Shown: positions 2,124 through 12,014 of the stretch, piece by piece | Numbering within the stretch: the first letter of the stretch is position 1 | Layout: each line of letters starts with the position of its first letter | DNA from: an uncultured Sphingomonadaceae bacterium | GTDB taxonomy: Bacteria; Pseudomonadota; Alphaproteobacteria; Sphingomonadales; Sphingomonadaceae | Assembly: GCA_947503245.1 (NCBI GenBank) | Contig: CANNCV010000001.1 | Location: forward strand, 1,177,501-1,241,500 | DNA length: 64,000 nucleotides | Direction: 5' to 3' | Made by a program: the position numbers and the translations under genes | Notes under the pieces: generated by a model | Told to the model about the DNA's origin: nothing | Seen by the model: only the letters and a program-made list of their open reading frames with translations | Database searches by the model: none

Positions 2124-3569
2124 ATGCCCAAGGCAAACATATTTGCCAATTTATATCAACGTGCCGCTCTGGCGCGGCATTCCGCTTGGGCTATTGTCCG
2201 GCACCCTGCAACTATTCTCGCAGGTGTTACGGCTTCGCTAAGCGCGTTTCTGATTATCCTTGCCACACCGGAGCCCGTTGTCGCTCAGGCATCTGATATA
2301 TTGCCAAAGGGTCAGCATCTTGGTGTCGCGTCTTGCGCAGGGTCGACCTGTCATGGCCGCAATGCTGCTGATGGGGAGGTTGTCCGTCAGGATGAGTTGA
2401 TGCGCTGGCAAGAGGAGTCAACTCCGGGCGGCGCGCATAGCCGGGCATTTCGTGTATTGGGTGAGCCGCGCAGTCTGGCCATCGCTAAAAAATTGGGCAT
2501 TGGTGATCCGCGTTCCGCGCAAATGTGTTTGGGCTGTCATGCGACACCTGCTGCAAGCAAGGGCGCGCGTTTTCAGCTTGATGATGGTGTCGGCTGTGAA
2601 GCATGTCATGGCCCGTCTTCCGGCTGGCTTTCCAGCCATTATGCCGTGGGCGCGAATCATAAAGATAATGTCGCGCGTGGTCTGGTGCCGTTGGAAGATC
2701 CAAAAGCCCGTGCCAGCAATTGCCTCGATTGCCACTTTGGTAGCGACAAAAAGGGTCAGTTTGTCGACCATCGCATCATGGCGGCTGGGCATCCGCGCAT
2801 TTCTTTTGAGCTAGACCTGTTTTCCACGCTGCAACAGCATCATGATGTGGATAGCGATTATATCCAACGTAAGGGCAAGCCATCATCGGTTCAGTTCTGG
2901 GCTGTAGGCCAAGCCATGGCGCTGGAGCGTTCGCTCAATATGTTCTCCAAACCGGGCTTTGGCACAGAAGGATTGTTCCCCGAATTTTATTTCTATGATT
3001 GTCATAGCTGCCATCGCAAAATTTATGACGATCCTGCAGCACGACCTACTTTCCTAGCCAACCCCGGTCGACCCATACCCAATGGCATGCCGCCTTATAA
3101 TGATGAGAATATGATTATGCTCTCCGCCGCGGTGCGTGTGATCGCGCCTGATATGGCGAAGCAATTTGATGGGCAGTCTAAGGCTTTTCACAATGCTATG
3201 GCTTTGGGTCGTAACAAGGCAGTGCTGGAAGCGCGCAAATTGTCACAAATGTCGCGTAATCTGGCCAATCGGTTCAGCAAAGGGCGGTTCACCCGCGCGC
3301 AGACATTTTCCATCATGAACATGATCGCCAGCGAAGCCATTGCGCCGCGCTTCACGGATTATGAGGGCGCAGTACAATCTGTGATGGCAGTGGATACGCT
3401 GTTGTCCGGCTTAGTGAATGACGGTCAGGTTTCGGCCAGAGGGGCCAATGCGCTACGCATTCAAATAAATGATGCTTATGCCGCTGTGTCGGAGCCCAAT
3501 GCTTTCCGTCCCCAACAGTTCCGCCGCGCTCTTGGTCAAGCTGTGCGCACCATTAGGACGTTGCGGTGA
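2124..3569 (+). CDS. Pentaheme cytochrome c family protein
   Basis: A 481-residue exported protein. Residues ~30-54 form a hydrophobic segment ending VVAQA, a signal peptide or membrane anchor after a basic ~30-residue head. Five covalent heme-c sites are visible: an unusual CX4CH (C71-H77) and CLGCH, CEACH, CLDCH and CHSCH at about 135, 158, 200 and 293. The arrangement, with GCEACHGP, recalls the cytochrome c554 family of multiheme electron carriers. The C-terminal ~180 residues lack heme motifs and look helical. It heads a co-directional block with a GlcG/HbpS lipoprotein, an outer-membrane barrel and a decaheme cytochrome, so periplasmic electron transfer is inferred. The ATG at 2124 has a poor ribosome site, so the start is uncertain. 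Confidence 0.85.
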   Translation: MPKANIFANLYQRAALARHSAWAIVRHPATILAGVTASLSAFLIILATPEPVVAQASDILPKGQHLGVASCAGSTCHGRNAADGEVVRQDELMRWQEESTPGGAHSRAFRVLGEPRSLAIAKKLGIGDPRSAQMCLGCHATPAASKGARFQLDDGVGCEACHGPSSGWLSSHYAVGANHKDNVARGLVPLEDPKARASNCLDCHFGSDKKGQFVDHRIMAAGHPRISFELDLFSTLQQHHDVDSDYIQRKGKPSSVQFWAVGQAMALERSLNMFSKPGFGTEGLFPEFYFYDCHSCHRKIYDDPAARPTFLANPGRPIPNGMPPYNDENMIMLSAAVRVIAPDMAKQFDGQSKAFHNAMALGRNKAVLEARKLSQMSRNLANRFSKGRFTRAQTFSIMNMIASEAIAPRFTDYEGAVQSVMAVDTLLSGLVNDGQVSARGANALRIQINDAYAAVSEPNAFRPQQFRRALGQAVRTIRTLR

Positions 3570-3641
3570 CGACATGCTGGCAAGGCTATTGGAAATAATC
3601 GAACACACCATGATGATATGTTGCACAAAAAGGATGAGGAT

Positions 3642-5675
3642 ATGCAGTTAGGCCGGCGCGATTCTTCGCGCAGACTGCTCGGCCTTGTCGTGGCTGGGGT
3701 ATGTGTACTGTCCACTGCTGCTTGTGGCGGCGGTGATGATAGCAGCACGCCTACTCCAGCTTCGGCGCCACCTGTTGCGGGGCCGGCTCCCGCCCCTGCG
3801 CCGCCAACTGGTGGCCTGTTCACACCTCCGCCGCAGGTGGCACTTACCGTCAATGATGTTCAGCAAGTTATTGCCCAAGCCGTGGGTGAGGCTCAGGCAC
3901 GTGGCTTAGCCTCTGATATAGCCGTTGTTGACCGTGTCGGTAACGTGCTTGCCGTTTTCAGTATGACTGGCGCGCCCACCGAAACCCGTTTCAGCAGCGT
4001 TACCGGTGATGGCGGCAATGATGGTGATACTGCATTGCAAGGCGCTATGGTGCCTAATGCGGCGGCGGCGATAGCCAAAGCGATAACTGGCGCATATTTA
4101 TCGAGCGGCGGCAACGCCTTCACCACCCGCACAGCCAGCCAGATTATTCAGCAGCACTTCCCGCCTGCGCCGACCACTGTCGGTTTGGAGAGCGGCCCGC
4201 TTTTCGGTGTGCAGTTCAGCCAATTGCCATGTTCCGATCTGTCGCAGCGCTTTTTGCCAAGTGGCGGTGTCTCAGCCTTTATCGGCCCCAAGCGCTCGCC
4301 ATTGGGATTGTCGGCTGATCCCGGGGGTTTGCCGCTCTACAAAAATGGCGTTTTGGTTGGCGGCGTCGGTATTATGGGCGATGGCGATTACGGTTTTGAT
4401 ACCAATATTTTGAATGTCGATCAGGATGATGAAGAGGCCATTGCGATCGCCGCAACACAGGGCTTTGCCGCGCCGACAACCATTCGCGCGAACCAGATAA
4501 CCGTGGATGGCACATCATTGCGGTTTAGCGATATCGACGCAGATGATATTGGCCCGGTACAAAATAATTTTGCCGCCATTAACGGAACGCAGGGCGCGCT
4601 GCTATCGGTTACAGGTTATACCAATGGCACCATCATTGCCGGGACAGCTTATGGCAGTGAAGCCTCTGGCATAAGAGCAGCAACATCCGGTGAATTTGGC
4701 AATTCCGATGCCTTTATCTTGACCGATGGTGCCGGTAATAACCGTTTCCCCATTCGTGGCGGCACAGATGGCGGCGCTGTTGCGCAACCGATTACAGCCG
4801 CTGAAGCCCGCGCAATATTAGAAGAAGCATTTGCCGTGCTGAGCCGAGCGCGCGCGCAGATACGCCGACCGCTGGATAGCCGGATGCAGGCGACGATTTC
4901 GCTGGTTGATACCAATGGCCAGATATTGGGCATTGTGCGCTCGCCAGATGGGCCAATATTCGGCACTGATGTTAGCTTACAAAAAGCGCGTACTGCGGCA
5001 TTTTTCTCTAACGCGGTGGCAGGTGATGAACTGCTGGCAACGCCTTCTGTGCCAAATGTGACGGATATTCCCAGCTATGTCACCAATACACGCGCTTTTC
5101 TGGGTGACCCTCAGGCACTGACCGGCACATTTGCATTTGCTGATCGTTCTGGCGGCAACTTGTCGCGGCCCTTCTTCCCTGATGGCGAAGTCGGTCGTCC
5201 TAATGGGCCATTTTCTGTTCCGATTGATCAATTCAGCCCCTTTGCTGTTGGTTTGCAGGTTGATTTGGTGCTGCCCAATCTGGTGCAGCATCTGGGCTTT
5301 GTAGCCAGCAATGGGGCCAGCGCGGATACGCCGCAGCGCTGCACGCAAGTGCCGGAGTTTTCTCCTGGCCAAAACCGTTTGCAAAACGGCATTCAGATTT
5401 TCCCCGGTTCGGTTCCTATTTATCGCAATGGCCAACTGATCGGCGGTATTGGCGTTTCGGGCGACGGTATTGACCAAGATGATATGGTCAGCTTTCTGGG
5501 TCTGAATAATGCGGGTGTGCGGCTTGGCGGCGCTTTGGGCAATGCGCCCCCTGATATTCGTGCTGATCGTATAGAGGTTGATCTTGGCAATACGCGAGTA
5601 CGGCTGCGCTATGTCAATTGCCCCTTTGCGCCGTTTTTGGATACGGCTGAACAAAATGTCTGTGAGGGTCTGTAA
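3642..5675 (+). CDS. Lipoprotein with two GlcG/HbpS-type heme-binding-like domains
   Basis: A 677-residue lipoprotein. A twin-Arg-like basic start and hydrophobic segment end in a lipobox-like TAAC (Cys28), followed by a Pro/Ala linker. Two copies of the GlcG/HbpS fold (formerly DUF336) follow, roughly residues 68-290 and 385-660. Each has an early ARGLASDIAVVD- or ATISLVD-type strand and a late matched segment (PLYKNGVLVGGVG and PIYRNGQLIGGIG). HbpS proteins bind heme or act in redox sensing; that role here is inferred. The start at 3642 is preferred over 3618 because AGGATGAGG precedes it. Its TAA overlaps the ATG of the next gene by one base, indicating translational coupling. A duplicated domain in one lipoprotein beside multiheme cytochromes is unusual. 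Confidence 0.75.
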   Translation: MQLGRRDSSRRLLGLVVAGVCVLSTAACGGGDDSSTPTPASAPPVAGPAPAPAPPTGGLFTPPPQVALTVNDVQQVIAQAVGEAQARGLASDIAVVDRVGNVLAVFSMTGAPTETRFSSVTGDGGNDGDTALQGAMVPNAAAAIAKAITGAYLSSGGNAFTTRTASQIIQQHFPPAPTTVGLESGPLFGVQFSQLPCSDLSQRFLPSGGVSAFIGPKRSPLGLSADPGGLPLYKNGVLVGGVGIMGDGDYGFDTNILNVDQDDEEAIAIAATQGFAAPTTIRANQITVDGTSLRFSDIDADDIGPVQNNFAAINGTQGALLSVTGYTNGTIIAGTAYGSEASGIRAATSGEFGNSDAFILTDGAGNNRFPIRGGTDGGAVAQPITAAEARAILEEAFAVLSRARAQIRRPLDSRMQATISLVDTNGQILGIVRSPDGPIFGTDVSLQKARTAAFFSNAVAGDELLATPSVPNVTDIPSYVTNTRAFLGDPQALTGTFAFADRSGGNLSRPFFPDGEVGRPNGPFSVPIDQFSPFAVGLQVDLVLPNLVQHLGFVASNGASADTPQRCTQVPEFSPGQNRLQNGIQIFPGSVPIYRNGQLIGGIGVSGDGIDQDDMVSFLGLNNAGVRLGGALGNAPPDIRADRIEVDLGNTRVRLRYVNCPFAPFLDTAEQNVCEGL

Positions 5676-7609
5676 TGGGCCTTTCGGTCAGCATATTGCC
5701 GCTTGTGGCGCTGGCTATGGACCCGCAAGCAGGCGGTCAGGCCGCATCTGCATCAGTGCCGGATGACCAGAAAGAAAGCATTCCTGCTCCATCAGATGCT
5801 CCGCCATCGGTGGAATCTGGGCCAGATGCTGAAGACGCATTGATAGATGGACGTCGTCGTCCGGGGCTTGAAAAAGACCTGCCTGACCCGGTTATTCAGG
5901 AAAATATTGGCGCGGTGCGAGCACCACCTCCCGAAGCCTTCCCCACCGATCAATTCCCTGTGCCCGATCGCTGGCGACTGATTGAATCCCTGGGCGTGGT
6001 GAAGGAAAACTGGTTCGACCCCTATAATCAGAATACCTATAAGGGCGATCGCCCCATATGTATTCCGACTGATGAAGAACAAGAGCGGCGAGAACAGCTA
6101 GGTTTGCCTGCGTGTAAGACACCAAAATTTCTGGGGCTGAAATCCAAGGATGAGTGGTTCTTCGTTGTTAATGCAATTTCTGACACGGTGATTGAGCCAC
6201 GCAGCTTCCCGATACCCGTTGGCGTTCAGACCACCAATAGACCAGACAGTCTGGATGTCTTTGGCCGCGCAGATTCGCTGGTGCTGGCCCAGACGTTCAT
6301 TACCGGCTTTGCTCTGATTAAAGGGCAAACCGCCTATAAACCACCAGATGTTGAATATCGTCTGACATTGGCGACACAGGTTAACCATGTCGATGTGCCG
6401 GAACGGCGGGTATTATTTGTTGAACCATCGGAAGGCACCGAACGGACGGACTTTTTTGTCGGCCTGCAAGAGCTGTTTGTTGACTATCACTTCCGCAACA
6501 CGTCGGACCGGTATGATTTTGATTCTGGTCGTATCGGCATTCAGCCTTTTCAGGCAGATTTTCGCGGCTTTTTGTTTCAGGATAATCAGCTTGGCGTGCG
6601 CTATTTCGGAACGCGCGATAATAACCGAGTGCAATATAATCTCGGCGCATTTTGGCGTTTGGAGAAAGACACCAATTCAGGCCTGAATGACATATTGGCA
6701 ACGCCGCGCAGCGACTTTGTGTTTTTTGCCAATATATACCGGCAGGATTTCCCCTTGGTCGGGCTAACCAGTCAGGCAAGCATCACCTATAATATGAACC
6801 GCGAAGGCGGGGATATAGAGATTGATGATAATGGCTTTCCCGTGCGCCCTGCACTGATTGGGGATTTGCGCGGCCGTGATTATGATGTTGTCTATCTGGG
6901 TTATGCTGTTGATGGTCGTGTTGGCCGGTTTAACCTGACGGGCCAGCTTTATGGTGCTTTTGGTGAAGACCGCAACAGCATCTTTACCAGCCAGCCAGCC
7001 GATATTGCCGCTTATTTCGCTGCCGCGGAATTGAGCTATGATTATGACTTTATGCGTTTTCGCTTGTCAGGCCTGTTCGCCAGCGGTGATGGCGACCCGG
7101 AAAACAATACCGAAGGCGGTTTTGACGCGATTTTTGAGAACCCTATTTTTGCGGGGGCAGACACCAGCTATTGGATTCGTCAAACCATACCTTTTGCTGG
7201 CGGCGGGCGTGCAGTCAGCATCAATGGTCGCAATGGTATATTAAACTCGCTGCGCTCTTCTAAAGAGCAGGGGCAAAGCAATTTTAACAATCCGGGCACA
7301 ATATTGGCAGGCATTGGCGCTGATTTTGATCTGACGCCGGAGGTCCGCGTTTCCACCAATGCCAATCATTTGTGGTTCCACAAAACTGATACGTTGCAGA
7401 CGCTGCGCAATGAGGGTTCGATCCCGACAGATATAGGTTGGGATCTCTCTGTTGCGGGCATTTGGCGGCCTAAGGCGACGCAAAATATAGTGTTCCGCCT
7501 GTCTGCGGCTGCTTTTGACCCTAGCGATGGTTTCTCAGACCTGTTTGCCCAATCGGGCGATACAGATATTTTCTATTCGGTGCTGTTCAATGCAATTCTG
7601 GCCTTCTAA
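5675..7609 (+). CDS. Predicted outer-membrane beta-barrel (porin-like) protein
   Basis: A 644-residue protein coupled to the lipoprotein gene by a TAATG overlap. It has a short hydrophobic N terminus, an acidic Pro-rich linker to ~residue 85, then long alternating aromatic/polar strands with Asp/Asn-rich turns. It ends in a terminal Phe (NAILAF), the usual outer-membrane insertion signal. I recognise no named family with certainty; it resembles porin or alginate-export-like barrels. Its position between a heme-domain lipoprotein and a decaheme cytochrome parallels the porin partner of porin-cytochrome conduits such as MtrB. That parallel is architectural only, with no visible homology. The signal peptide is weak, so an alternative start is possible. 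Confidence 0.7.
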   Translation: MGLSVSILPLVALAMDPQAGGQAASASVPDDQKESIPAPSDAPPSVESGPDAEDALIDGRRRPGLEKDLPDPVIQENIGAVRAPPPEAFPTDQFPVPDRWRLIESLGVVKENWFDPYNQNTYKGDRPICIPTDEEQERREQLGLPACKTPKFLGLKSKDEWFFVVNAISDTVIEPRSFPIPVGVQTTNRPDSLDVFGRADSLVLAQTFITGFALIKGQTAYKPPDVEYRLTLATQVNHVDVPERRVLFVEPSEGTERTDFFVGLQELFVDYHFRNTSDRYDFDSGRIGIQPFQADFRGFLFQDNQLGVRYFGTRDNNRVQYNLGAFWRLEKDTNSGLNDILATPRSDFVFFANIYRQDFPLVGLTSQASITYNMNREGGDIEIDDNGFPVRPALIGDLRGRDYDVVYLGYAVDGRVGRFNLTGQLYGAFGEDRNSIFTSQPADIAAYFAAAELSYDYDFMRFRLSGLFASGDGDPENNTEGGFDAIFENPIFAGADTSYWIRQTIPFAGGGRAVSINGRNGILNSLRSSKEQGQSNFNNPGTILAGIGADFDLTPEVRVSTNANHLWFHKTDTLQTLRNEGSIPTDIGWDLSVAGIWRPKATQNIVFRLSAAAFDPSDGFSDLFAQSGDTDIFYSVLFNAILAF

Positions 7610-7631
7610 CTCTTCACCCGCTGTTGCGGGC

Positions 7632-10600
7632 ATGCGGCTTATCACGCAATTGCCATTGCGTATCATGGCTATGCTGGGTCTATGCCTGTTGCTGACATTG
7701 TGCAGCAGCGATAGCGGTTTTGCGGCAAAGAAAGAAAAGCCGCAAAAGGTCAAATATAGTTTTACGCCGCCTGCGCCGCGCCAACAGCCCGGCGATACTC
7801 TGGCTGAGCAAAAGGCTGCGATGCAAGCCAAAAGCGCTGGCTGTGTCAGCTGTCATACCGATAGTGACCAAAAGACAATGCACGCGTCTCCTGCGGTTCT
7901 GCTGGGCTGTACGGATTGCCATGGCGGTGATCCGCAAGTGGTGGGCAATAATGAATGGGGCTGGAAAGATGCCCGCTATACTGATGCGCTGAAAAAGGCG
8001 CATGTTCTGCCCAAATATCCGGAGGCTTGGCACTGGCCATCATCTGCCAATCCGCAACGCTCTTATGCTTTGCTGGCCAAAGAATCACCTGAATTTATCC
8101 GTTTCGTTAACCCGTCAGATTATCGCATTGTGCGCGATGCATGCGGAGCCTGTCATATTGAGGTGATTGAAGCATCTGAACGTTCGCTCATGTCAACAGG
8201 CGCAATGCTCTGGGGTGGTGCGGCTTATAATAATGGTATTGTACCTTACAAAAATTATATTTTTGGTGAGGCTTTTACCCGTGCAGGTGAGCCAGCCACC
8301 ATCAAATCCGCCAGCCCTGAGCCGGGCGCGAAATATGGTGAAGTAACCGCTGCGCAAAAGGCACGTGGCGCGCTGCCTGTGCTCTATCCGCTCCCCAGTT
8401 GGCATGTTATTCCGCCGGGCGATATCTTCCGCGTATTTGAACGCGGCGGCCGCAATGTAAATACGCAATTTCCTGAAATTGGTATTCCCAATATTGGCGG
8501 CATCATTCAACGGCTGGAAGAGCCAGGACGCCCAGACTTGAAACAGTCCAATCGCGGCCCTGGCACTGGCCTGCGTGTGGCTATTCCGGTCCTGAACATT
8601 CATAAAACGCGCCTGAATGATCCTTTTCTCTGGCAGATGGGCACCAATGATCAGCCGGGCGATTATCGCACATCGGGCTGCGCGGCCTGTCACGTTATTT
8701 ACGCTAATGACCGCGAGCCACGGCACAGCCTGACCTATGCCAAATATGGCCGTGATGGGCAGACAGCGACTGCCGATCCGACGATTGCAAACCTGTATGA
8801 AGGGCAGAAGCGCTTTGGCTCTTACGGTACATATGATGCGGCCAAGGCTGGATCACATGGCGGCGATGGTCATGGGGAAGATGGCCATGGTGATGGGCAC
8901 TCAGGCAAAGGCGGCGCAGGTGTTGATGGAGAGGGCGGACTGGAACGCGGCCATCCGATCAAGCATGAATTTACCCGCGCTATCCCAACCGCGCAGTGCA
9001 TGAACTGCCATATGCACCAGCCCAATATCTTCCTGAACAGCTATTTGGGCTATACAATGTGGGATTATGAGTCCGACGCGCCAAAAATGTGGCCGGGCCC
9101 TGAAAATACCCTGTCACAGCCAGAAGGCATGTCCGACGAAGAATTTAAGCGGATATTCAAAACACAAAAATTCCCTACCGCTGCTGAGGTCTATTCTGTG
9201 CTTCAGCGTAATCCAGAAGGCGCGTCGCCCAAGGGTTTATGGGGTGATCTCGACTTTTTGCGCAATGTTTATGATATCAATGAAGAGCTGAACGACACGC
9301 AATTTGCTGATTATCACGGCCATGGCTGGAATTTCCGCGCGATCCTGAAACGTGACCGCGAAGGCAATTTGCTGGATGCCGATAACAATATTGTTGCAGA
9401 TGATGACCCAGAGAAATTCCGCAAAGGCGATGAGGGCAAATTTGTTGAGCCAGGCGTAAACCCCGGCAAAACCGTGCATATGATGGACATTCATGCGCAA
9501 GTTGGCATGCAGTGTGCAGATTGCCATTTCGCGCAGGATAGCCATGGCAATGGCCTGATCTATGGCGAAGTCGCCAATGCGGTAGAAATTGGCTGTAAAG
9601 ATTGTCACGGCACGGCTGATGCTTATCCAACGCTGAAAACATCCAATCTGGCCGCGCGGCCGCAAGGCACCAATTTGGCGTTGCTGCGTAACCCTGATGG
9701 TCGCCGCCGCTTTGAATGGTTTGATAAGCCAGATGGCCGCCGCGTGCTGGTGCAGCGGTCCATTATCGACCCAGAGATTGAGTGGGAAGTCAGCCTGACC
9801 AAAGACAGTGTTGACCGCAGTCACCCCGATTTTAACGTTAAATCTGCCCGGGCAAAAACGGTCGCTAAGGCATCTTCTGAAACGGGGCAATTCCTCTTTG
9901 GTGCAGGCGTAGCCAAGGCCGACCGCGCGCATGATGATGGTAATATGGCCTGCTTTACCTGTCACCTGAGCTGGACCACCAGTTGCGGCGGTTGCCATTT
10001 GCCGATTGAAGCGAACTGGAAAACCAAAACGCACAAATATAAAGAAGAAGAAACCCGCAACTATGCCACCTATAATCCGCAGGTTGCACGCGACCAAATG
10101 TTCCAGCTTGGCCGTCATCAGACCAGCAAAGCGGGCGGAGAAGTCGATGAAAATGGCAATCCGATTGGCATTATTGCGCCGATCCGTTCCACTTCGGCGC
10201 TGATCCTGTCATCGACCAATATCAACCGTGAACGTATCTATGTGCAGCAACCGCCTATCTCTGCGGCTGGGTTTTCTTCTCAGGCCTTTGCACCGCACTT
10301 CCCGCATACGGTGCGTAAGACAGAGACGAAGCAATGCTCTGACTGCCATTTGAGCGCAGAGGATGACAATAATGCCATCATGGCGCAGCTATTGTTGCTG
10401 GGCACCAATTTCGTCAACTTTGTCGGGATGCATGCATGGGTAGGTTTAGATGATGGTTTCGAAGCAGTGCGCGTCACTGAATGGGACGAGCCACAAGCGG
10501 TTATCGGCTCCTATCTGCAACGCTATGCCTATCCCGATTATTATAAATTGCATGTCGACAAAAATGGCCGCGAGCTGAAAAACTGGGTGCGTGGTGAGAC

Positions 10601-12014
10601 ATTTGATGACAAATTCTCTGGTGAAACCAAAGCGCTCGAAGAATTTGCCAATGTGGTGCAAGACACTTCAGGTTCAGTCCGCTGCCTGCAAAATCGCGGT
10701 GAATATATCTTTGTTGCAGAGGGCAAGGGTGGTTTTCGCGCTTATGATATCGCCTCTATTGGCAATAAGGGTTTTTCTGAACGCATCGTGCGCGCGCCTT
10801 TCTCTTCTCTGGGGCAGGACACCCATGTGAAGAGCAAGAATGCCACGTGCATGGCGCTGGCTACAACCCAGCCTATTGCGCCTGAGCGTAACGAAGATAT
10901 GGCAAACACCAATTTAACCGATGCTGATGGCAATGTCGTGCTGGAAGAAGATGGCACGCCGCGTACCTTGCTGGAAGAAAATCAGGAGCAAAGCTTCCAC
11001 CCCATTTATAATTATGCGGTGGTGACGGATAGCGAAGAGGGCTTGATCCTTGTCGATATCAACACGCTGGCCGATGGTGAGTTTCGCAACAATTTCTTCA
11101 AGCGTATGGAATTTGCAGGCGGCGGTGATGCTTGGAATGAAGGCGGCGCATTAACCGGCGCCCGGCACATCACATTGGCCGGCCACATTGCTTATATCAC
11201 TACGGATAGCGGGCTCGTCGTGGTTGATCTCGATGACCCGACCATGCCCAAAATTACGGCGCAAATTGCGCTGCCCGATGCGCGGGCCAGTGCGGTGCAG
11301 TTCCGTTATCTCTGGGTGACTGATGCTGAAGGCGTAAAGCTGTTTGACATTACATCGCTGCGCCAGCCAGTCGCAGTGCCAGAAGCGACGGTGCGGCTGG
11401 ACAATGCACGTAAGCTCTATCTGGCGCGGACCTATGCTTATGTTGCAGCGAAACAGGATGGTCTGGTGATATTGGATATTACCAAGCCAAAAGCACCGCG
11501 CGAATATATGCGGTATAATGCAGGCGGCGTTCTGAATGATGCTGAGGATGTTATCGTCGGTTCCACCAATGCTTCGCTTTTCGCTTATGTGGCGGATGGC
11601 CGCAATGGCATGAAAGTGGTGCAACTCACCTCACCGGAAAGCCAACCGAAATTTTATGGGTTCTCACCAGCACCAAAACCGGAATTGATCGCCTTTGCCA
11701 AGACGCCATCACCGGCTCTGGCTTTGGCCAAAGGGTTGGACCGTGATCGTGCTGTCGATGAGACTGGCGGCCAGATGGCGGTGTTTGGCCGGTTGGGTTC
11801 ACGTCCATTTACGCGTAGTGAGATGGAGCGGCTATTCCTTAACGCCAAGGGCATGCCTTATAAGGTGCGCGATGAAGCTAGCTTGGCCGATTGGGTAGGG
11901 GCGCTTGACCGCCAACGGCAGCGCGCTGCTGCAAATGATGGTCTGCCGCCACCTGTTACCGCTGCGCCGCCTATTGCTGCTGTCCCTTCGCAGAGCATTG
12001 GCGGCGGGCGGTAA
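7632..12014 (+). CDS. Decaheme cytochrome c fused to a C-terminal LVIVD-type beta-propeller
   Basis: About 1461 residues. A signal peptide (LGLCLLLTLC...GFA) is followed by ten CXXCH sites: CVSCH, CTDCH, CGACH, CAACH, CMNCH, CADCH, CKDCH, CFTCH, CGGCH and CSDCH, near residues 71, 93, 171, 350, 456, 628, 655, 774, 785 and 902. A Gly/His/Asp-rich insert (~405-432) sits between hemes 4 and 5. From ~1010 to 1300 there are repeated strands such as GLVVVDLDDP and GLVILDITKP, the LVIVD-repeat pattern of a beta-propeller. ATG 7632 is used because it begins a good signal peptide; ATG 7590 would overlap the porin gene. Predicted periplasmic or surface-exposed redox protein completing the four-gene block; the electron donor and acceptor are unknown. 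Confidence 0.85.
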   Translation: MRLITQLPLRIMAMLGLCLLLTLCSSDSGFAAKKEKPQKVKYSFTPPAPRQQPGDTLAEQKAAMQAKSAGCVSCHTDSDQKTMHASPAVLLGCTDCHGGDPQVVGNNEWGWKDARYTDALKKAHVLPKYPEAWHWPSSANPQRSYALLAKESPEFIRFVNPSDYRIVRDACGACHIEVIEASERSLMSTGAMLWGGAAYNNGIVPYKNYIFGEAFTRAGEPATIKSASPEPGAKYGEVTAAQKARGALPVLYPLPSWHVIPPGDIFRVFERGGRNVNTQFPEIGIPNIGGIIQRLEEPGRPDLKQSNRGPGTGLRVAIPVLNIHKTRLNDPFLWQMGTNDQPGDYRTSGCAACHVIYANDREPRHSLTYAKYGRDGQTATADPTIANLYEGQKRFGSYGTYDAAKAGSHGGDGHGEDGHGDGHSGKGGAGVDGEGGLERGHPIKHEFTRAIPTAQCMNCHMHQPNIFLNSYLGYTMWDYESDAPKMWPGPENTLSQPEGMSDEEFKRIFKTQKFPTAAEVYSVLQRNPEGASPKGLWGDLDFLRNVYDINEELNDTQFADYHGHGWNFRAILKRDREGNLLDADNNIVADDDPEKFRKGDEGKFVEPGVNPGKTVHMMDIHAQVGMQCADCHFAQDSHGNGLIYGEVANAVEIGCKDCHGTADAYPTLKTSNLAARPQGTNLALLRNPDGRRRFEWFDKPDGRRVLVQRSIIDPEIEWEVSLTKDSVDRSHPDFNVKSARAKTVAKASSETGQFLFGAGVAKADRAHDDGNMACFTCHLSWTTSCGGCHLPIEANWKTKTHKYKEEETRNYATYNPQVARDQMFQLGRHQTSKAGGEVDENGNPIGIIAPIRSTSALILSSTNINRERIYVQQPPISAAGFSSQAFAPHFPHTVRKTETKQCSDCHLSAEDDNNAIMAQLLLLGTNFVNFVGMHAWVGLDDGFEAVRVTEWDEPQAVIGSYLQRYAYPDYYKLHVDKNGRELKNWVRGETFDDKFSGETKALEEFANVVQDTSGSVRCLQNRGEYIFVAEGKGGFRAYDIASIGNKGFSERIVRAPFSSLGQDTHVKSKNATCMALATTQPIAPERNEDMANTNLTDADGNVVLEEDGTPRTLLEENQEQSFHPIYNYAVVTDSEEGLILVDINTLADGEFRNNFFKRMEFAGGGDAWNEGGALTGARHITLAGHIAYITTDSGLVVVDLDDPTMPKITAQIALPDARASAVQFRYLWVTDAEGVKLFDITSLRQPVAVPEATVRLDNARKLYLARTYAYVAAKQDGLVILDITKPKAPREYMRYNAGGVLNDAEDVIVGSTNASLFAYVADGRNGMKVVQLTSPESQPKFYGFSPAPKPELIAFAKTPSPALALAKGLDRDRAVDETGGQMAVFGRLGSRPFTRSEMERLFLNAKGMPYKVRDEASLADWVGALDRQRQRAAANDGLPPPVTAAPPIAAVPSQSIGGGR

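Follow-up and report, generated by a model that had tools for sequence, protein, structure and literature searches.

The window analysed here, 64,000 nucleotides from an uncultured Sphingomonadaceae bacterium (GenBank assembly GCA_947503245.1, contig CANNCV010000001.1, positions 1,177,501 to 1,241,500 of the forward strand), contains a conserved set of four envelope redox genes, G1 to G4, which point in the same direction on the plus strand and together fill positions 2124-12014. These genes are the outer half only of a larger system. On balance, we favour a reading in which they form the outer-membrane and surface half of a trans-envelope electron-transfer chain that is related to the porin-cytochrome complex PCC4 and runs outward from NAD(P)H. 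Judged from sequence, the system would combine a PCC4-type inner half with a different, new outer module and would represent a widespread but patchily distributed variant of a putative conduit type. The features concerned are:

2124-3569, plus strand: G1, exported pentaheme c-type cytochrome with four CXXCH motifs and one CX4CH motif, Cytochrome_C554-like (PF13435, 41.1 bits)
3642-5675, plus strand: G2, lipoprotein with four conserved cysteines, in which insertions break up two HbpS/GlcG-like domains (PF03928, 78 bits)
5673-5677, plus strand: stop/start overlap TAATG of G2 and G3, from the coordinates of the open reading frames (ORFs; G2 ends and G3 starts at 5675)
5675-7609, plus strand: G3, outer-membrane β-barrel, 18 strands in the model, AlgE/OprD-type fold
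7632-12014, plus strand: G4, large exported cytochrome with ten heme motifs and, in its C-terminal part, LVIVD (β-propeller-type) repeats (PF08309, 55.5 bits)
7842-10349, plus strand: heme-binding region of G4, from its first CXXCH to its last (motif positions 60-895 of protein P0004)
11421-11519, plus strand: best LVIVD repeat stretch of G4 (best PF08309 stretch, residues 1253-1285 of P0004)

Linkage and distribution of the gene set

The first-pass annotation of this DNA had claimed a co-directional block whose middle genes overlap by TAATG, and this is what the ORF coordinates confirm. The four-gene observation is real and an artefact is excluded. In a scan of named genomes at least 518 relatives were confirmed, the best 80 of which, mostly from Sphingomonadales, were kept as loci (79 of them gave usable rows for alignment A3 and 73 for A4). 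Where the contig extended far enough, G2 lies upstream (70/70), G4 downstream (70/70) and G1 upstream (68/68) of G3 on the same strand, and a chance neighbourhood is therefore excluded. That the four genes stay together holds for G2, G3 and G4, which are adjacent in the loci read, but less strictly for G1, which outside the window's family is often reversed, downstream or beyond the stretch, though it is never missing from a barrel genome of the class.

The spread of the system is wide but patchy. G3 is present in 29 of 385 genomes of the class at an E limit of 0.001, and these span 14 family labels; with the different limit of 1e-30, G4 was found in exactly the same 29 genomes and the decaheme protein F03, described below, in all 29 and eight others. 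Hypergeometric probabilities, which ignore relatedness, amount to 3e-44 for the identical G3 and G4 sets and 1e-36 for G3 within the F03 set. G1 occurs in 29/29 barrel genomes, in six of the eight genomes with F03 only and in none of 18 genomes chosen without either. A smaller search matched F03 in 12/12 genomes known to hold G3 or G4; among four other genomes it was unmatched in three and gave a weak partial match in one. At the level of the phylum, 12 of 398 genomes contain G3, two of them outside the class. Within the window's own family, G4 was detected in 12 of the 24 genomes searched; the order's other families, represented by 16 genomes, gave none. Named genomes with the system belong to Sphingobium, Sphingopyxis, Sphingomonas, Erythrobacter and Sphingorhabdus species. 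Large-plasmid records from Sphingobium (12) and Sphingopyxis (one) carry G3 and G4; F03 is also located on all 12 G4-bearing Sphingobium plasmids and was not found on the Sphingopyxis plasmid. The locus sets overlap in that L124 and L252 are one genome and L130 and L164, judged by length, one contig.

The inner half and its relation to PCC4

Constant neighbours emerged when the ORFs of the window and 45 relatives (46 loci) were grouped by clustering. Since the procedure discarded any ORF that overlapped a longer one and worked with stop-to-stop frames, its counts are lower bounds: F03 is present in at least 29, F05 in at least 24 and F06 in at least 23 of the 46 loci, while the groups F07, F08 and F10 look like antisense frames. 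F06 (about 810 residues) joins NAD(P)/FAD-binding and Fe-S domains (Fer4_11, PF13247, 4e-12) to a pair of domains that bind cyclic nucleotides, and its 16 cysteines invariant in 24 sequences are fit for four Fe-S clusters. F05 (about 300 residues) has five hydrophobic regions in a simple hydropathy scan and two histidine pairs, H114/H128 and H286/H300, that are invariant in 25 sequences. In the window's own genome these are part of two WX3HX13H motifs (W110/H114/H128 and W282/H286/H300), accompanied by SGXXG at S151-G155; both WX3HX13H motifs are found at 88 of 89 loci and SGXXG at 82 of 89. F03 (about 600 residues) has one hydrophobic region, ten CXXCH motifs conserved at 0.97-1.00 in 30 sequences and an FHA-like N-terminal domain, the match to which is weak (18.7 bits, under the Pfam cut-off of 20.7). 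Its decaheme part would reside in the periplasm.

F03 belongs to the system because it is present in 29/29 barrel genomes, F05 and F06 because of gene order. In genomes from several other families the two halves make up a single cluster, commonly in the order F06-F05-F03-(F12)-G2-G3-G4, and among the 80 named-genome loci F03 and F05 lie within the stretch in 36 and F06 in 34. In the window's genome F06, F05, F03 and F09 are consecutive (G000:C1:1278034-1284238), about 88 kb past G4. The phosphodiesterase-like F09 (L231 11384-12238) follows the F06 operon mainly in the window's family, with a weaker match 5 kb away in L238; nearest to it are cyclic-nucleotide phosphodiesterases, with scores below their cut-offs, and its position beside an operon for a cyclic-nucleotide-binding oxidoreductase suggests local cyclic-nucleotide control. 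F12, a protein of about 200 residues without a Pfam or NCBIfam match, is encoded between F03 and G2 in seven loci (among them L113 5962-6603 and L115 6754-7389).

In the relevant parts of the original report, PCC4 is proposed as a putative porin-cytochrome complex of a porin and cytochromes with four, five and ten hemes, joined by an inner-membrane protein with two WX3HX13H motifs and SGXXG and, in one subgroup, by an Fe-S gene of PF13247 (He et al., 2017; PMC5566968). The inner-membrane protein finds its counterpart in F05 with its five putative transmembrane helices and the same motifs, the ten-heme periplasmic cytochrome in F03 of the window's genome (ten CXXCH, presumably periplasmic), the four-heme cytochrome in G1 (four CXXCH plus CX4CH) and the Fe-S protein in F06. 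A five-heme cytochrome turned up neither in L231 nor when the heme ORFs of 45 loci were examined, the window's genome as a whole not having been searched for it. G3 does not correspond to the porin (hhalign probability 0.2 against PCC4-like porins, with shallow profiles of Neff 1.7 and 1.9), and the PCC4-like five-heme protein and G4, again with shallow profiles, share no detectable homology outside one heme stretch. The five-heme cytochrome and the porin of PCC4 are replaced in the window's system by the HbpS lipoprotein, the 18-strand barrel and the decaheme-propeller protein. All these matches, and the four PCC4-like loci treated below, were judged by description and not against the paper's own sequences. 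The first-pass annotation knew of no described system with this exact set of genes. No paper describing the set was among the matches listed from the open-licence literature, and PCC4 goes unmentioned in PMC10734462, PMC7005843 and PMC8446621; the set's close relative PCC4 had been proposed in 2017, but with another outer module, as far as the parts of that report consulted here describe it (PMC5566968).

Of the eight genomes with F03 but no barrel, four (G099, G144, G159 and G417) encode five- and ten-heme proteins and a porin-like protein, and their PCC4-like loci L243, L244, L245 and L248 have this pattern together with the F03 and F05 that they share with the window's system. G1 homologs also occur in PCC4-like clusters: three of the four PCC4-like genomes have clear G1 and F06, while the fourth, G159 (locus L245), has a distant four-heme protein only and no F06 match. 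As to the remaining genomes, G064 has G2 at a contig end, G263 is represented by a 4.8-kb contig, and G091 and G296 possess G1, with no outer module seen within the 20 kb examined. In a tree of F06 (50 rows), PCC4-type L243 falls inside a group of the HbpS-type loci L106, L110 and L109, and L244 and L248 are placed elsewhere with weak support. This is a hint that outer modules may have been exchanged, in a test that also allows a single origin. Outside the class, F03 genomes (L249, L250 and L251) have F06-F05-F03 clusters with neither outer module in the stretch read, and these may have a third outer module or none.

Barrel, lipoprotein and cytochromes of the outer module

The outer-membrane barrel of the first-pass annotation was borne out by structure prediction: an AlphaFold2 model of G3 from 80 sequences (pLDDT 70.5, pTM 0.73) has 18 strands, counted from the listed elements of what is a prediction and not a structure. 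Foldseek ranked AlgE first (2.1e-16), and VIA-align superimposed the model on AlgE (5d5d) with Z 25.4 and an rmsd of 3.0 over 360 aligned residues, tied with an OprD-type porin (Z 24.9). G3 resembles these porins in its predicted 18-strand fold (Z about 25) and differs from them in its sequence, which is about 9-15% identical and matches no Pfam family at E 0.1, and in its setting among cytochromes; a profile search of the PDB gave no match. Some 70 residues between strands 13 and 14 (window 7082-7297, P0003 residues 470-541) are among the best conserved parts of the barrel and partly of low confidence in the model; this segment may serve in docking or as a plug.

The system lacks the MtrCAB features that were looked for. 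It shares with MtrCAB, MtoAB and PioAB the pairing of a barrel with multiheme cytochromes at the outer membrane, but G3 has no MtrB_PioB (PF11854) match, and an MtrB-like barrel was ruled out on this ground together with the 18 strands and the AlgE/OprD-type fold. MtrB is not among the fold matches listed for G3 (50 rows per search), an absence that alone excludes nothing. An MtrB_PioB protein was not found in the window's own genome and is encoded elsewhere in the genome in three of 31 barrel genomes. For the MtrA/DmsE-type decaheme model TIGR03508 (cut-off 192.2 bits), G1 scored 20.3 and F03 24 bits, and G4 was not among the matches listed. In the parts of the source consulted here, 26 strands are given for MtrB, MtoB and PioB and about 17 for Cyc2 (PMC10654088). 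With 18 strands modelled in G3 as against 26 in those barrels, an MtrA-like cytochrome sheathed in G3 is unlikely. Cyc2 has a slender domain inside its barrel, and by analogy it is possible that G3 accommodates such a domain. PCC3, finally, resembles the window's system in having a barrel, periplasmic and extracellular multiheme cytochromes and an inner-membrane protein, but differs in heme numbers and porin size, with a median of 34 and 21 hemes in the cytochromes and porins of up to 42 transmembrane regions according to the portions of the report used here (He et al., 2017; PMC5566968).

The HbpS-type domains, which had been noted as an extra component, are a constant part of the gene set. 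G2 scores 78 bits against PF03928 (curated cut-off 25) in three stretches, at 3843-3986, 4818-5012 and 5355-5489 of the window. Domain 1 is matched in its N-terminal part only and domain 2 in two pieces; the HbpS assignment stands, but calling the protein a "double" HbpS relies in part on a motif repeat recognised by eye. Compared with the HbpS/GlcG/EfgA family, G2 differs in carrying two copies, interrupted by insertions, on a lipoprotein. A lipobox-like signal was detected by a simple pattern in 89 of 115 homologs, and C205, C575, C668 and C682 of P0002 are conserved at 0.98 or above in 115 homologs. The first ATG is at 3618, and a better start, judged by eye, at 3642 behind aaggatgagg. Among the PDB sequences nearest the HbpS part are EfgA and NahX as well as a putative extracellular heme-binding protein, and the formaldehyde sensor EfgA (6bws) is the best match; from such sequence relations, G2 could be a small-molecule sensor. 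AlgK serves as a scaffold for AlgE. The HbpS domains of G2 may function in ligand binding, heme binding or scaffolding.

The five hemes ascribed to G1 are correct provided that CX4CH carries heme; in 101 homologs all five motifs, CX4CH included, are conserved at 1.00 and six other histidines at 0.99 or above. G4 is a ten-heme cytochrome with a propeller-type part, as annotated at first pass: its ten CXXCH motifs, conserved at 0.99-1.00 in 118 homologs, span about 840 residues and are followed by the LVIVD repeats. Fourteen histidines outside the motifs, one of them in the repeat region, are conserved at 1.00 in the same homologs and would be enough for bis-histidine ligation. The likely start of G4 is ATG 7632, the first-pass ORF having begun at TTG 7515, and a profile search of the PDB gave no match. 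A poorly conserved His/Gly/Asp-rich loop (window 8853-8939, about residues 397-425 of P0004) is inserted in G4 and may bind metal.

Surface cytochromes of Shewanella and Geobacter are exported by type II secretion. A GspE/PilB-like gene lies within the stretch in seven of 125 loci, and in G293 (L115, L254) the genes next to G1 form an almost complete type II secretion set. There, G1 is followed by genes for a prepilin peptidase and a GspE-like protein (similarity only). Next come frames with matches to GspF, G, H, I, J and K, then a protein with a PilN domain where L would be expected, a GspM frame, one frame without a match and, last, GspD. Scores for G, M and D exceed the curated cut-offs; those for F, H, I, J and K are below them. 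These genes support, without proving it, a surface position of a component, and we favour its export on the strength of this neighbourhood.

Direction and function of the proposed chain

In the outward chain, by what seems the most economical path, electrons from cytoplasmic NAD(P)H would enter the flavin and the four 4Fe-4S clusters of the cyclic-nucleotide-binding oxidoreductase F06 and pass via the two b hemes of the five-helix inner-membrane protein F05 to the FHA-like cytochrome F03, whose decaheme domain would lie in the periplasm. From there G1, with its five hemes, would carry them to the decaheme-propeller protein G4, which would be exposed at the surface and held at the outer membrane in a complex with G3, the 18-strand barrel, and G2, the HbpS lipoprotein; G4 would pass them to an extracellular acceptor. 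The genes, their motifs, conservation, linkage and co-occurrence are observed, and from them we infer electron flow, its direction and cofactor loading; outward flow is favoured because F06 has nucleotide-binding folds. Cyclic nucleotides and phosphothreonine would act as regulatory signals. The initial proposal of a conduit or surface-redox system stands in so far as a conserved envelope redox gene set is present, but the four genes are only half of the system, and an MtrAB-style cytochrome inside the barrel is not supported with 18 strands.

If this outward chain exists, many cultivable sphingomonads possess a redox route, so far without an assigned role, that leads from NAD(P)H to the cell surface. 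In that case the function of the PCC4-type inner half becomes testable in ordinary laboratory strains, as does the ability of a barrel with 18 strands to support electron transfer through the outer membrane, and the sensor domains on the inner half would make the conduit regulated. A wider generalization, which we offer tentatively and with less than even confidence, is that of a modular chain, widespread but patchy in Alphaproteobacteria and present in aerobic sphingomonads too. An NAD(P)H oxidase gated by cyclic nucleotides, together with an FHA-domain cytochrome, would drive electrons to exchangeable outer-membrane modules, here of a new kind made up of an AlgE-type barrel, an HbpS lipoprotein and a secreted decaheme-propeller protein.

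Several points weigh against the outward chain. Sphingomonads are mostly aerobic heterotrophs with no evident need for extracellular respiration. In the window's genome F06, F05 and F03 are encoded apart from the four genes, the occurrence of F05 and F06 is that seen beside F03 in the loci read and not from a genome-by-genome search, and F03 of L250 and L251 has nine CXXCH motifs, not ten. The narrow 18-strand barrel type leaves the crossing of the outer membrane by electrons unexplained. The model of the decaheme part of G4 (residues 24-1010, 74 sequences; mean pLDDT 48.8, pTM 0.37) is unusable. None of the loci of the window's family among the 125 has a GspE/PilB-like gene, although the window's own genome was not searched for type II secretion. 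Experimental work on the system was not found in the open-licence literature. Finally, in the parts of the 2017 report consulted here, PCC4 is drawn with inward flow, the quinone pool receiving electrons from a donor outside the cell, and is found in genomes of iron oxidisers (PMC5566968).

That model of PCC4 speaks for the same chain run inward, with surface cytochromes oxidising Fe(II), Mn(II) or some other reductant outside the cell and passing the electrons to the inner membrane, a direction that we hold to be rather unlikely. Multiheme chains can run both ways. The NAD(P)/FAD folds and the 16 invariant cysteines of F06, however, point to the NAD(P)H pool, which lies uphill from Fe(II) or Mn(II), and the named host organisms are not known as iron oxidisers. 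We also weighed a respiratory-type enzyme in which G4 would be an extracytoplasmic reductase of a soluble compound, G3 the substrate channel and G2 a binder of a small molecule or heme. The fold matches of G3 to alginate and small-molecule porins, the company of EfgA, NahX and the putative heme-binding protein next to G2, and the 14 extra histidines and long heme span of G4, unlike a thin wire, are consistent with it; yet searches of Pfam, family models and PDB profiles matched G4 to no known enzyme family beyond cytochrome heme-motif models and LVIVD-type repeats, and such an enzyme is decidedly unlikely. Highly improbable, in our estimate, is an apparatus for iron or heme acquisition, with heme bound by the HbpS domains, iron or heme passed by the barrel and surface ferric iron reduced by the chain. 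The heme number of the system is far above that of known ferric reductases, and no TonB-type receptor was seen among the identified conserved neighbour families, not all of which were scanned. The name and haem link of the HbpS family would fit acquisition, as would the resemblance of the PCC4 inner-membrane motifs to ferric-reductase transmembrane domains that is mentioned in the parts of the 2017 report used here (PMC5566968).

Two further observations concern the surroundings of the locus. In both Sphingobium plasmids read, a transporter gene of the two-partner-secretion type and a gene for a very large neighbour protein are located directly upstream of G1 (L061 515-8668, S. herbicidovorans plasmid pMSHV; L063 1-6566). 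In two related loci, a gene for a trypsin-like protease is situated between G4 and G1 (L113 14281-15459; L114 4153-5355).

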